A program made the position numbers and the translations under genes. From Parvularia atlantis (lineage: Eukaryota; Opisthokonta; Rotosphaerida), in NCBI GenBank assembly GCA_943704415.1, contig CALSCO010002505.1:1-24397 (forward strand): DNA of 24,397 nucleotides. The letters are read 5' to 3'. The number at the start of each line of letters is the position of its first letter. Positions within the stretch are counted from its first letter, which is position 1. The notes under the pieces were generated by a model that saw only the letters and a list, made by a program, of their open reading frames with translations, had not been told where the DNA came from and made no database searches. Below are positions 230 to 24,188 of this stretch, one piece after another.

Positions 230-2440
230 TCAGAGGTGGCTGATGCGGCCCGACAGGCCGCGCATGGTCTGCGTGAACAGGCGGGTGCAGTCGACCGCGT
301 GGCACGCCCGCGGCACGGCGCCCTTGTCGGCCTCGGCGATCTCGTCAAACACGGCACACTGGGCCTGCTTGAGGTTGGCCACGGTCGACGGCGGGTCGTC
401 GATCACGATGTGCTGCGAGCCGTAGACGGGCCACTGCAGCGGCACGGTCTGCGTGCCCGTATTTGGGTTGCCCGTGTGGGCCATGTTGGTCCAGTACGCG
501 ACCGTGTGCTTGGCCACGACGCGGTCGTCGTCGTTGAACAGCAGCGGGTCAAAGTTGAACACTGCCACACGCCCGCCGCCGCCCGCCGCCGCCCGCCGCC
601 GTAAGACCGCCGCGCCCTCGCCGGCGCAAACCGACCGCCGCACCGTACGGCAGCTCGGCCGCGTGGAACGCGCCCAGCTCCGGCGCGATCCGGTCGATGA
701 CGCTGTTGACAAAGGCGAAGCGGTAGGCGTAGACGCTCGTGTACGGCGACATCCAGCGCGCGGTGCGCAGGGCCTGTGCGCCGCGCGGGCGCGCGTGGTC
801 AGTGCGAGCGCGCCGAGTGCCGTGCTGCCGCGCACCGGGCAGGTGAAAGTGTCATCGGTGAAGATCTGCTGCGTGGCAAAGTACGCGTTTTCGTAGTCCG
901 ACAGCGGGTAGACCTCGAGCAGCTTGGCGCCATCCTCGGGGCCGTAGACTGACTGCACAAACGCGCGGTACTCGGCCTCGGTCGTGTCGGCGCCGAGCGT
1001 ACCGGCGATTTCGTCCGCGTTCGAGCCGATGACGACGGGCACGCGCGTGAACTCGCCGCGCTGCACGAGCGTGCGCGGGTCATCGCGCAGCTCGACGTCG
1101 TCGATAATCGCGCCCCAGTCGCCGAGGCGCGAGATCGGCTGGAGGGTGCAGCCGCGGCGGGTCAACTCTGTGCGCGCAGCGCGGTGCCGCTGACGCACCA
1201 CGCGCTCGACGATGTCGGCCGCGGGCACGGCGCGCAGGCACGCGAGCGTGGTGCAGTTGAGCGCAGCGAGGAACTCCTGCGCGACACAGACGCACGTCAG
1301 TCCACGGTCCAGCGCACACCCGCGGCCGCGCACCGAGTACTGCTCGTTCGCGCGCTCCTGCGTCAGCAGGAACATGCCGTTGTGCGCGCCTGCGGGCGCG
1401 GGCGTTCAAGGGCGCATGCGGCGCGCGGGCTGCGCGCACCGCTCTCCATGACCGCGCGATGGAACAGCTGCGCCGAGCGCGGCATGACCAGGTGCGTGTT
1501 GACGCTCCACGAGCCGGCCGACTCGCCAAAGATGAGCACGCGCGAGGGGTCGCCGCCAAAGTTGGCGATGTTGTCGCGGACCCAGATGAGCGCGTTGCGC
1601 TGGTCCTGTTGCATGCGCGATCAGTATTGGCGACAATCTCGCGTCACGCACGCACGAGGAAGCCGTAGTTGCCGTTGGCGCCGCTGCCAGACTCGGTCGC
1701 GAGCGCCGGGCCGCCGAGGAAGCCGAAGACGTTGACGCTGCGCGACGACGTGAGCGAGCGTGTGCGCACACCGATGAGGCGCGCACCGGTAGTTGACCGT
1801 TGCAACCACGACATCGTTCGTGAGCTCGACGATGCCCGCGCCGTTGTACACGGGCAGGGCTGCGTTCGCGACGGCGGATTAGCCGGACGACGGAAGCAAA
1901 GCGCAAGCAGCGCACAGATGCCGCCGTTCTCGAGGCTGCCGCCGTAGAAGAAGACCATCACGGCCAGGCGCGAGCTATTGGTGACGCCGCGTGGCGTGAA
2001 CACGTTCATGTACAGGCAGTCCTCCGATTGCCTGCGGCGCGGCGTCGGAGTGAGGCGGCGACATGCGTTGCCTGCGCGGGACGCACTCGATGAACCAGAA
2101 GCCATCGTCGTTCTGGAAGCAGTCGAACGGCTTGACGGTCGCGTCGCGCACAGTGTTGCCCCACGGCTGCGGCGGGCTCGGCGCAGCCCAGCGCAGCCTG
2201 TCGCGGCGGCGTCAAGTGACGCGCGATCCCCGCACGGACGGCGGCCGGCCGCACGCACGAGCCCACGGGCGGCGACGAGTGCGGGATGCCGTAGAAGACG
2301 CGGTGCGTCGGGTTCACCACGCCGCGCACGCTGCCGTACGTCGTGCGCACGACGGCCTCGTCGGCCTGCGCGGCCGCGAGCGCGACGACGACCGCGACGA
2401 CCGCGACGGCGACGACGACGGCAACGTGACCACCGGCCAT
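230..2440 (-). CDS. Secreted carboxylesterase/cholinesterase-family hydrolase (11 exons, 542 aa)
   Basis: Type-B carboxylesterase, alpha/beta-hydrolase fold. Introns: 562-643, 774-835, 1139-1198, 1277-1333, 1390-1439, 1606-1655, 1738-1786, 1860-1915, 2032-2086, 2198-2258. All begin GTGCG and all phases close. The start ATG at 2440 opens a Val/Ala-rich signal peptide (about residues 1-25), so the product is probably secreted or enters the ER. The family signature SEDCLYMNV follows the oxyanion-side region, and [11 protein letters not shown] matches the HGGG-type loop. The whole triad is visible: Ser217 in GESAGSW, Glu331 in GSNADE, His426 in [10 protein letters not shown]. Length is normal for the family. 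No C-terminal membrane segment or GPI signal is evident. Two introns (1277-1333, 1139-1198) are multiples of three without stops; they are called because conserved spacing improves when they are removed. The substrate cannot be told from sequence; acetylcholinesterase activity should not be assumed. Confidence 0.9.
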
Positions 2441-2466
2441 GCTGGGTGTTTCGTGGTGGCGCACTG
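2441..2466. promoter_or_regulatory. 26-bp divergent intergenic region
   Basis: These 26 bp separate the start codons of the carboxylesterase (minus) and the J-domain protein (plus). Any shared promoter must extend into coding sequence or lie almost wholly here, and both 5' UTRs must be minimal or overlap the neighbour. No TATA or CCAAT element is seen. Confidence 0.5.
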
Positions 2467-21525: not shown

Positions 21526-21571
21526 TCATGAACCACACACCGCGGCGCACACCATTCACCCGCGCGCTCAC

Positions 21572-24188
21572 TCAGTCGATCTTCACGTTTTGGTAGATCC
21601 TCCGCACAAACAGCTCAGCCGCGACGAGGCCGATCGTGCCCAGCGTCAGGAACAGGCCAAAGCAGATGACCGACGTGAACGAGAAGTAAAAGAACGTCTG
21701 GAAGAAGCCCGTCATGCTGCGCGCGCGCGCGCAGGCAGTCAGCCGCGGCCGGCTAGCATGCCACGCGTGCGCACCGTGTCCGCGCGAAAAAGTAGTAGAT
21801 CGCGTACAGCATCACGTACATCGCCGTTGACCCGCTCGTCAGGAAGCTCGTCCAGTGCCTGCGTGCGCACCCACGTGTCTCAGCCGCACAGTTGAGGGCG
21901 CCGACCGCGGGCGCGCGCACCACCGGTGGTCCTCCGAGTTGAGCAGGAAGTAGGTCGCAACGACGGTCACGCATGCCGTGACGATCGCGAGGATCACAAA
22001 CACCAGCAGCATGAAGCCGTACACGTAGTAGATCTGCACCGGTCGGCGGGCGTGTCAGGACGTGCGACGCGCTCTGCGATCGCGCACCTTGTACGCCCAG
22101 AACGACGTGAAGATAAAGTACATCTCGATGAAGATCGAGCCGAATGGCAGAATGCCGCCCAGCAGAATGATCACCCACGACTGCGCCGCGCGCACCGTCA
22201 GCCCGTCGACCGCTACTGCCTGCCCGCCCGCCGGGCGCGCGCACACACCTCGAGGTACCACTTCTTCTCGGGTATTGCGCGCGGGATCGGGTTGACGCGG
22301 CACGGGAAGTCCGGCCGCCCGGCCCAGTTGCGCCCGACGACGGTGCCGAGCAGCGTGAGCGGGAAGATGAGGAAGAACCAGATGGCGATGATGGCGACGA
22401 GTGTGCCAAAATGGATCGCGCGCGACGACTCGTAGTAGAGCGCGACAAAGTTGTTGAGCAGGGTCACGGCCGACGCCGCGCCGGGCCAAAGCACAGTCGT
22501 GATGAGCATGACGCGGATCCAGCCTGACCCTGCGACGCGCGGCGTCAGATGCGGGCGCGTGCGGCGGCGCGCGGGCACACGCACCGTCATATTTGCTGTA
22601 GAAGCTGCCGCTGAAGAAGCCGGCGATGAACGACGTCAGCGCGTAGCAGAACACGGACGCAGTGAGGATGGTCGAGCGCCTGGCGGCCAGGGCGTGTCAG
22701 CCCACGACGGCGCAAGAAGGTGCGCAGGCGCACTCGGTGTAGAGGTCGCCCATGATTGTGTACAGGATGATCACGAGCGTGAGCACACCGAGCTGCCAGC
22801 CCGTGCCCACGAACGCCGACAGGATCGGCAGGCCCGGCGGGGCGCGGAACACGTCGGCGTGGACCTGTTTCCAGCCGTACTCGTCGCCAAGGTCGCGGTC
22901 CTTGCAGCCGCGGCACAGTCAGCCGGGAGCACAGCAGCACCCGTTGCGACCGCGCGCACCAGGTCGGTCATCGCGTCCTTGCGATCGTAGCGCGCAAAGT
23001 CGTGGTTGAGCGTGCGCATGAGGATGACGATGACAAGGCCGACGAGGAAGATAACCATCATGAACGAGTTGAAGATCGAGAACCAATGGATCTGTGCACG
23101 GCGCGCACGTGCGGCCGTCAGCGTCTGCGGCAGCGCCCGTGCGTTGTGCACAACACGCCTTGTGCTCGAAAAAGTCCTGGTCGAGGAACTTATCGAAGCG
23201 CTGCTCGAACGGCGTCTTGACGGCCTTCCACGTGATCGACCACGAGAATCGCAGGTGCCGCAGCGGGCCGCTCTTGGGCAGCCGCACGGGCTCGGTGCTG
23301 GTCAGGTTGACCTCGATGATCTGCGGCCGCCGTCAGCCCCGACAACGCGCGTGACCAGCCGGCCGCGCCGCACGCGCCTGGTTGCCGTTGTAGCTGACAG
23401 AGAACTCCTTGTGCGTGTACAGATAGACCGGGTCGTCGTCGCTGTTGCGCAGTGCGCGCGTCTCGCCCGTGAACCCTACAAAGCCCCACACGGGCAGGTC
23501 GTCTGGATGCGCGGGCTGTGAGCGCCTGTCGCTTCACACACCTGCACGCGCCCGCACCGACAAAGAGCTGGAACCAGTAGTTCTCAAGGATCGCCTGGCG
23601 GAACGCCTGCACGCCGCGCTCGTTCAGCTCGGCGATCATGCACAGGGTCACGTTCTTGGCCGGCACTGGTCGCGCGATGGCGCGTGTGTCAGGCAGGCTG
23701 CGCGTGACGGACGGCCTCGCGCGCGCACCGAGGAACTTGGCGCCGATGCCGGCGTTGATCAGCTCCATACCCTGCAGCACCTCGCCGAGCGTCTCGTGGT
23801 GGTGCTCGACCACGTCCTGCGCACCTGTGTGAGCCGAGCGGCCTGCTGGACGGGCGCGCCGGCACCTGGCCCTTGCAGTACGGCAGCTTGTAGAACGGAT
23901 ACGTCTCCTGGCGGTTGTTGTACGGGCCAACCGTGTTGACCCACAGGATCACGTCCTCGCCCTTGTCGTACTGCGCGCCGAGGACGGGCCGAGCCACGCA
24001 CTCAGCGGGCGCGCGGGCGGCATGCGGAGGCCGCGCACCACGTGCGTGTGCTCGTCGGCGCGCGCGACCGGCGCGAGCAGCAGCGCCGCCAGCACCAGCA
24101 CGAGCGCGAGCGGCCCCGGCGCGGGCGACTGCGGCCGCCGGCGTGGCGAGGCGGCGGCGGCGGCGGCGTGGGCGTCAGGGGCGTGCAT
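21572..24188 (-). CDS. TM9SF3: TM9SF3-type nonaspanin, transmembrane 9 superfamily (14 exons, 615 aa)
   Basis: Nine-pass Golgi/endosome membrane protein. Introns: 21717-21774, 21859-21920, 22034-22087, 22181-22248, 22530-22584, 22680-22733, 22901-22959, 23092-23158, 23321-23377, 23503-23557, 23666-23728, 23817-23865, 23971-24038. The signal peptide (about 1-48) ends near ADEHTHV. The lumenal domain has [18 protein letters not shown] and [15 protein letters not shown]. The membrane half has [69 protein letters not shown] and [20 protein letters not shown]. It ends [12 protein letters not shown], the KxD COPI-type retrieval signal of the family. The PEKK and SFWAYKIYYVYGF segments identify the TM9SF3 branch rather than TM9SF2/4. 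The ATG at 24188 is the first in frame. Introns 23321-23377 and 23092-23158 start with GC. Confidence 0.94.
23092..23158 (-). other. Second GC-AG intron in TM9SF3
   Basis: The coding strand reads GAGCACAAG then GCGTGTTG, ending CCGTGCACAG before ATCCATTGG. The join [15 protein letters not shown] matches the family sequence [15 protein letters not shown]. The nearby GT dinucleotides are out of phase. Confidence 0.75.
23321..23377 (-). other. GC-AG intron in TM9SF3
   Basis: The coding strand reads AACCAG then GCGCGTGCGG, ending GGCCGCAG before ATCATCGAGGTC. Joining at these points gives [13 protein letters not shown], which matches the family motif NGNRIVDVNLTS without gap. No GT donor gives this join. 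Confidence 0.85.

Follow-up and report, generated by a model that had tools for sequence, protein, structure and literature searches.

Introns usually start with GTAAG or GTGAG. From its letters, the window analysed here, the whole stretch of 24,397 nucleotides from a GC-rich protist genome, was predicted to use GTGCG donors instead, which raises the question of whether a donor with C at position +4 is the working consensus of this genome and what selects such a base.

The donor consensus within and outside the window

We sampled nuclear sequence with a GC content of 0.67–0.71, the reading covering 1.4% of the assembly. Over 228 kb, a naive gene finder that knew GT…AG only, without donor preference, called 558 introns, of which 294 start with GTGCG. 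A flat-donor model, for which the 3′ end was learnt and the donor left flat, gave 476 GTGCG donors among 762 introns in the sampled sequence and 60 among 82 within the window, and a model with a donor matrix learnt outside the window (learnt-donor model) gave 61 of 75 in the window. Outside the window GTGCG starts 390 of 538 sampled introns, so the locus is not an outlier in a genome that otherwise uses GTRAG, and a GTGCG majority is confirmed as a property of the predicted introns. The share in the original prediction, 69 of 91 (76%), is close to that in the Pfam-matched stretches of the window (30 of 38 introns, or 32 of 38 once protein scores had moved two donors), although the match was not reproduced intron by intron. 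Given a background of 10% of GT sites, enrichment at donors is about sixfold. A bicosoecid origin, considered on account of the 70% GC, was rejected: UGA encodes Trp in the mtDNA of Cafeteria, and the nad1 and nad4 frames of this assembly contain no TGA.

C stands at +4 in 77–87% of introns. Among 387 introns chosen by their 3′ end and length, +4 is C in 313, T in 37, G in 21 and A in 16, versus 0.35 C, 0.34 G, 0.16 A and 0.15 T in sampled sequence. G at +5 is kept, as had been claimed, and C exceeds T at +6. The exon bases CAG or AAG said to precede the donor are weaker than claimed: G stands at −1 in 267 of 387 but A at −2 in only 109 of 387. In these introns −1 G and GCG showed no clear dependence on each other (four classes of 171, 96, 82 and 38), and there was no sign of U6 pairing beyond +6, with A at +7 in 41 of 387, under background.

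The exact GTGCG share is uncertain, because in the naive set the branch motif described below is nearly as frequent with non-GTGCG donors (66 of 133) as with GTGCG donors (158 of 285), which suggests that many of the former are real introns whose donors are misplaced or truly different. With GT and GC both permitted, GC donors made up 227 of 764 calls, including 31 with GCGGT, and GTGCG fell to 365; GC donors were rejected in bulk since the GCGGT calls suit 3-base shifts of GCG|GTGCG, and only the EMP70 case below is claimed. Exonic avoidance was uninformative as a test of donor strength, as GTGCG is over-represented in exons (605 versus 370 expected, and 475 versus 301 in a second count). The reverse complement CGCAC is likewise over-represented there (1.3-fold) and 45 in-exon cassettes were found versus 12.5 expected, so word composition and missed introns each account for part of the exonic excess.

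The introns placed in the window come from the flat-donor model and lie in Pfam-matched stretches of minus-strand genes with CAG acceptors, unless stated otherwise. In the carboxylesterase gene (COesterase match), GTGCGT starts the introns at 2198–2258, 2032–2086, 1606–1655 and 1139–1198, and GTGCGC those at 1860–1915, 1738–1786, 1390–1439, 1277–1333 and 774–835. The GTGCGG intron at 562–643 was called by the learnt-donor model and lifts the COesterase score from 344 to 349.1 bits; the flat-donor model had chosen 562–631, with GTTTG. In the M16 peptidase gene the learnt-donor model likewise placed a GTGCGC intron at 7316–7379, raising the Peptidase_M16 score from 111.3 to 123.0 bits, where the flat-donor model chose 7299–7359, with GTGCA. 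The same gene has GTGCGC introns at 6828–6880, at the edge between two M16 matches, and 6670–6719, GTGCGG at 6989–7050 and 6432–6493, GTGCGT at 6554–6606, GTGCTG at 6250–6302, GTAACG at 6049–6090 and GTGTGC with an AAG acceptor at 7168–7222.

The histone deacetylase gene has GTGCGC introns at 11123–11170 (missing from two other models), 10858–10906 and 10647–10708, GTGCGT at 10543–10598 and GTGCGG at 10325–10374. GTGCGC also starts the intron in a zf-UBP match (9326–9389) and those of the DnaJ gene (13247–13294 and 12224–12280). On the plus strand, the SIN3 gene has GTGCGC introns at 15523–15580 and 16982–17032 and a GTTTGG intron at 16781–16832. The lone GTGAGT intron of the original prediction was recovered at 17537–17598 (plus strand), outside the 38 Pfam-supported introns, and is the sole GTRAG donor among the 82 listed by the flat-donor model; two other models place this intron at 17532–17611.

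In the EMP70/TM9SF gene, protein scores point to a GC–AG intron with the donor GCGTGT at 23092–23158: the EMP70 score was 488.1 bits with a forced GT donor, the GT-limited flat-donor model having chosen 23092–23221, and 523.0 bits with the GC donor. The other introns of this gene start with GTGCGC at 22901–22959 (AAG acceptor), 22680–22733, 22034–22087, 21859–21920 and 21717–21774, with GTGCGT at 22530–22584 (acceptor at 22524 in two other models) and with GTGTGT at 22181–22248. A comparison of the EMP70 protein with solved structures returned no relative.

Short introns with a strong branch motif

Acceptors of the 38 Pfam-supported introns are CAG in 36 and AAG in two, close to the predicted near-uniform CAG. 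The predicted lack of a polypyrimidine tract also held, pyrimidines making up 0.53–0.54 of the three 3′ segments tested and T 0.12–0.18, versus 0.15 in sampled sequence. CTNAC, which played no part in the intron calls, is present in 288 of the 486 introns that measure 40–90 nt, versus 21 on the reverse complement and 46 in shuffles, with the branch A at a median of 18 nt from the intron end (quartiles 15–22). Of the CTGAC/CTGAG motif first proposed, CTGAC stands (153 of 486); the second common form is CTCAC (127 of 486), and CTGAG is enriched less (42 versus 13.5 expected). The median intron length is 57 nt.

Canonical snRNAs and the selection of +4C

U1, U2, U4, U5 and U6 are all present with canonical core motifs, which together with the GT–AG ends and a branch motif facing GUAGUA of U2 identifies these introns as U2-type (major). 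With 41 of 149 first-look candidates scored, a single U1 exceeded the Rfam cut-off, and its 5′ start is the canonical AUACUUACCUG. A pattern with the two facing bases left free matched this gene only; because the pattern assumes the Sm region of this gene, a U1 whose body differs would escape it. U6 keeps ACAGAGA and has no compensating change, so that neither of the places where a change facing +4 had been anticipated is altered. CGCAC, the complement of GTGCG, is absent from U1, U2, U5 and U6 as found. The U6 gene bears an insertion, and the predicted fold of the complete U6 transcript is no more stable than that of shuffled sequences (z −0.25).

Computed pairing with the U1 5′ end gave −14.1 kcal/mol for CAGGTGAGTAT versus −9.7 kcal/mol for CAGGTGCGTAT, bearing out the predicted mispairing of +4C. 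A +4G would pair with U1 (CAGGTGGGTAT, −13.3 versus −9.7 kcal/mol for +4C) yet it is the most avoided base, which argues that U1 pairing does not select +4. U1 duplex energy separated donors from exonic GT less well than the donor matrix did, with AUCs of 0.777 and 0.933, respectively, in the trained set, whose construction favours the matrix, and of 0.709 and 0.777 in the naive set.

We favour, at a probability of about 0.6, an ordinary major spliceosome with the preferred donor (G)|GTGCGY, in which U1 docks weakly and +4C is picked at a later U6/Prp8 step. The donor consensus, the CTSAC branch motif, the short introns and the unchanged U1 5′ end and U6 ACAGAGA can be read directly from the DNA. 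U1 would dock through −1G, +1G, +2U, +3G and +5G, tolerating the +4C mismatch, and the short introns and branch site may supply the rest of first recognition. We infer that +4C would then be selected, not by U1, when the 5′ splice site is handed over to U6 and Prp8, with +4 facing the middle A of ACAGA. The original interpretation is thus partly supported: for the idea that weak U1 pairing is offset elsewhere, short introns, a strong branch motif and −1G/+5G stand, a U6 change does not, and the exon adds only modest pairing beyond −1 G.

This reading leaves the selecting factor open and hence overlaps with its strongest competitor, a protein change (U1-C, LUC7, Prp8, SNRNP27K or METTL16 activity) that moved the +4 preference from A to C, to which we give somewhat less than even odds. 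Passages of PMC10581693 link +4A to +4U switches in Saccharomycotina yeasts to loss of METTL16/SNRNP27K, the +4 preference tracking these factors without snRNA change. The present genome resembles those yeasts in having a changed +4 preference without U1 or U6 sequence change, but the base is C rather than the U that accompanied the yeast losses, and both proteins are present. METTL16 retains NPPF, its best relatives of solved structure being U6 A43 methyltransferases, and SNRNP27K still has a methionine at the position aligned with Met141, so that loss of METTL16, SNRNP27K or Met141, as in the yeast-type switch, is not the cause of +4C. In favour of a protein change, the alignment of METTL16 with its best solved relative begins at residue 14 of the query and residue 21 of the chain, leaving the N-terminal segment unaligned.

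We consider it unlikely that the consensus is a mere by-product of GC-biased mutation at a permissive site in a 70% GC genome. The GC content of the samples and the GTGCG background at GT sites count for it, as does the high GC content of the published +4C genomes, those of Micromonas and Ostreococcus, and such mutation perhaps favoured +3 G and +6 C. However, it cannot alone account for the excess of C over G at +4 (313 versus 21), though each makes up about 0.35 of the sample, and the enrichment of GTGCG at donors also stands against it.

Micromonas introner elements have GYGCGT donors, according to passages of PMC3879977, but recently spread introner-like copies carrying GTGCG along are a very improbable source here: at E up to 1e-4, all-against-all blastn of the 762 introns, sampled from 1.4% of the assembly, yielded 56 alignment lines, and among the 15 alignments listed eight are one pair and all span 22–44 nt. 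Slightly less probable again is a U1 altered to compensate at the bases that face +3/+4, which would restore pairing where +4C costs the duplex about 4.4 kcal/mol, and which the one U1 found, being canonical, contradicts. Least credible is that GTGCG-rich DNA read without transcripts produced the pattern as an artefact: gene finders are misled by GC-rich frames, the calls were made from sequence, and only 221 of 693 calls start with GT when all 16 dinucleotides are permitted as donor, but GTGCG still leads that run (155 of 693, the next at 35), Pfam matches span 38 joins, and the branch motif, which the first two models did not include, is 14 times as frequent as on the reverse strand.

Known +4C genomes and the biology of position +4

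The +4C GTGCG pattern is unusual but not unique, two green algae being already known with it, and one GTGCGT has reportedly been described in a stwintron study. Passages of PMC3879977 give AG|GTGCGT and an NCTGAC branch motif for canonical introns of Micromonas (Mamiellophyceae). The present genome shares the +4C consensus and CTGAC-type motif, but its motif lies about 18 nt from the acceptor versus 43–52 bp, CTCAC is almost as frequent as CTGAC, and there are about 4.9 introns per kb of predicted coding sequence, whereas canonical introns are few or absent in most Micromonas genes. In Ostreococcus lucimarinus, introns outside chromosome 2 have the same +4C donor, an ‘atypical consensus GTGCGTG’ in passages of PMC2483917, which treat that genome as intron-poor, whereas this one is intron-rich. 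Unlike Micromonas, this assembly (0 of 1 genomes) gave no match to the light-harvesting or chlorophyll a/b-binding family expected of a photosynthetic mamiellophycean alga. Given the lack of such a match, this genome is probably a separate, intron-rich instance of +4C donors.

The Ostreococcus authors proposed in 2008 to seek snRNA changes complementing the donor (passages of PMC2483917); in this lineage, where U1 and U6 were read, the pairing bases are unchanged and no snRNA change of that kind was found. This genome would be mis-annotated by gene finders whose training donors were GTRAG. Published +4 work, as far as passages of PMC10581693 represent it, centres on A and U, METTL16 and SNRNP27K. 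We tentatively suggest, with the odds against it, a third stable 5′ splice site state in which +4C is actively read at a step later than U1, where it faces the central A of ACAGA, with METTL16 and SNRNP27K kept and independently of green picoalgae. If this is true, the A-or-U view of +4 evolution would be incomplete, and +4 would be set by some property of Prp8, by U6 modification or by another factor. With C at +4 in about 80% of introns, U1 and U6 pairing bases unchanged and both proteins present, the genome offers a natural test of which other factors determine the base at +4.

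GTGCG as the donor consensus

From the assembly (16,251,876 bases in 616 contigs) we sampled 24 sequences of 67–71% GC content, namely the window (contig C604), a further 19 pieces of 10 kb each and four short loci, together ~228 kb or 1.4% of the assembly. Two loci (L001 and L006) were excluded as overlaps and a third (L009) because it belongs to a 23.5% GC contig with mitochondrial protein genes. The first gene model was a gene finder that read both strands, scored coding sequence with a 3-periodic Markov model, ran for five rounds and constrained introns by GT and AG only; a second used a donor matrix learnt outside the window, and a third had a flat donor and took 3' end, length and coding statistics from the donor-trained calls.

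In the GT/AG-only model, GTGCG opens 294 of 558 introns, followed by GTGTG (29) and GTGCC (22); its background share is 10.0%, taken over the 26,478 GT sites of the two strands. Among 178 introns chosen from the 542 of at least 36 nt by a CAG end, a length of 40–90 nt and CTNAC with its A 10–32 nt from the end, 117 are GTGCG, and +4 is C in 147, T in 14, G in 11 and A in 6. The branch motif is nearly equally common in calls with donors unlike GTGCG (66/133) and in GTGCG calls (158/285), and the former are therefore in good part real introns with donors misplaced or truly different. Outside the window, 390 of 538 donor-trained introns are GTGCG (+3 G 90%, +4 C 87%, +5 G 88%, +6 C 48% or T 34%), extending the consensus claimed by the original prediction beyond the window. 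The flat-donor model gives 476/762, with C at 77% of +4 positions. When it permits both GT and GC, GTGCG accounts for 365 and GC for 227 of 764 calls; with all 16 dinucleotides permitted (693 calls, 221 GT), GTGCG is top at 155 and CGCGC second at 35. Exons of the sampled sequences hold GTGCG ~1.6-fold above synonymous shuffles, and GTAAG is rare there (5 versus 17–18 expected).

Among 486 donor-trained introns of 40–90 nt, CTNAC occurs in 288, versus 21 for its reverse complement and 46 for shuffles, with the branch A 18 nt from the intron end (quartiles 15–22). Of the predicted CTGAC/CTGAG-like motif, CTGAC stands (153), but the second common form is CTCAC (127). These introns have no pyrimidine enrichment upstream of the acceptor, in line with the predicted lack of a polypyrimidine tract; the preferred acceptor is CGCAG (-5 C 58%, -4 G 62%, -3 C 92%). 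Introns have a median length of 57 nt, with 4.9 of them to each kb of predicted coding sequence.

Introns inside the window

With the flat-donor model, 60 of 82 window introns are GTGCG, and the one GTGAGT intron is recovered at identical coordinates (17537–17598). Pfam-matched stretches contain 38 of the 82, in carboxylesterase, M16 peptidase, histone deacetylase/zf-UBP, DnaJ, SIN3 and EMP70 genes (best stretches alone for SIN3 and EMP70; one M16 intron sits on the edge between two matches). GTGCG opens 30 of these 38, or 32 after score-based donor correction, which was tried for three introns only; others may be misplaced too. Shifting the donor to GTGCG raised Peptidase_M16 from 111.3 to 123.0 bits and COesterase from 344 to 349.1 bits, and shifting to a GC donor raised EMP70 from 488.1 to 523.0 bits, the protein score thus placing a GC-AG intron with donor GCGTGT in the EMP70/TM9SF gene (23092–23158, minus strand). 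Because 45 GTGCG cassettes remain within exons versus 12.5 expected from synonymous shuffling, intron counts are probably lower bounds. The gene at 9148–11606 (minus strand) joins a histone deacetylase to a C-terminal zf-UBP, an HDAC6-like architecture.

Spliceosomal RNAs and protein factors

The original prediction offered a compensating U1 change as one alternative, and U6 as a possible offset to weak U1 pairing. The single U1 match (41 of 149 candidates scored) has the 5' end AUACUUACCUG, and a pattern leaving free the two bases facing +3/+4 returns the same gene only; the single U6 match (47 of 492 scored) has ACAGAGA intact, and a 14-base U6 pattern tolerating one mismatch occurs in one place. 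No compensating change is seen in the U1 and U6 genes found. CGCAC is absent from U1, U2, U5 and U6; U2 keeps GUAGUA, U5 keeps GCCUUUUAC, and U4 is present. U2 (L028:1154–1341) reads GGCUUUGAUC versus GGCUAAGAUC in the Rfam consensus, the difference lying where U2 pairs close to the U6 triad.

The sole U6 gene found (L002:1501–1662; G000:C142:8820–8981) carries a 48-nt insertion that breaks the catalytic triad (A/GC or AG/C) and has no AG end with either boundary. Pairing in U4 stem I is stronger with joined U6 (-8.7 kcal/mol) than across the two boundaries (-5.2 and -6.0), which suggests that the insertion is removed from the transcript; U2 pairing (-10.4 joined; -6.7 and -12.2 across the boundaries) is not decisive. 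The insertion can form a hairpin, and a stretch in it resembles a Pol III B box.

METTL16 is present (Pfam Methyltransf_10, 180.6 bits) with NPPF kept, and the solved structures that match it best are U6 A43 methyltransferases; alignment to a solved relative begins at query residue 14, the frame seemingly starting close upstream. This METTL16-like protein (L003, minus strand) is without an alignable N-terminal segment, and an AT-rich direct repeat lies just upstream in the DNA. SNRNP27K is present (73.7 bits) and keeps the methionine aligned with human Met141. LUC7 matches lie on two contigs.

Selection of +4C and its occurrence in other lineages

In duplex energies for unmodified bases, +4C costs U1 pairing ~4.4 kcal/mol, and +4G would pair better (computed, -13.3). 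Across 387 introns, +4 is nevertheless C in 313 and G in 21, though the two bases are equally frequent in the sample, so U1 pairing does not choose +4 and composition alone fails to explain it. This leads us to favour the U6/Prp8 hand-over as the step at which +4C would be selected. In yeasts, as described in PMC10581693, +4 switches to U occur without snRNA change and track loss of METTL16 and SNRNP27K, whereas here both factors remain and +4 is C.

No light-harvesting family match was found in the assembly. The mitochondrial contig (C3, with L009 and L032; 15,620 bases) is AT-rich, its frames need no non-standard codon, and its genes, named by eye, include nad1, nad2, nad4, nad4L, nad5, rps4, rps7, rps11, rps12 and rps19. 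The rps7 frame is very long (1,139 aa), as is that of rps4 (~930 aa across L009 and L032), both asparagine- and lysine-rich. Judged from these sequence features, the organism is probably not a mamiellophycean, and hence its +4C genome is probably independent of Micromonas and Ostreococcus. Published accounts give AG/GTGCGT as the preference of canonical Micromonas introns (PMC3879977) and GTGCGTG for Ostreococcus introns outside chromosome 2, with possible snRNA changes raised by the authors (PMC2483917). To this already known pattern of GTGCG donors, the genome of Parvularia atlantis adds one more case.
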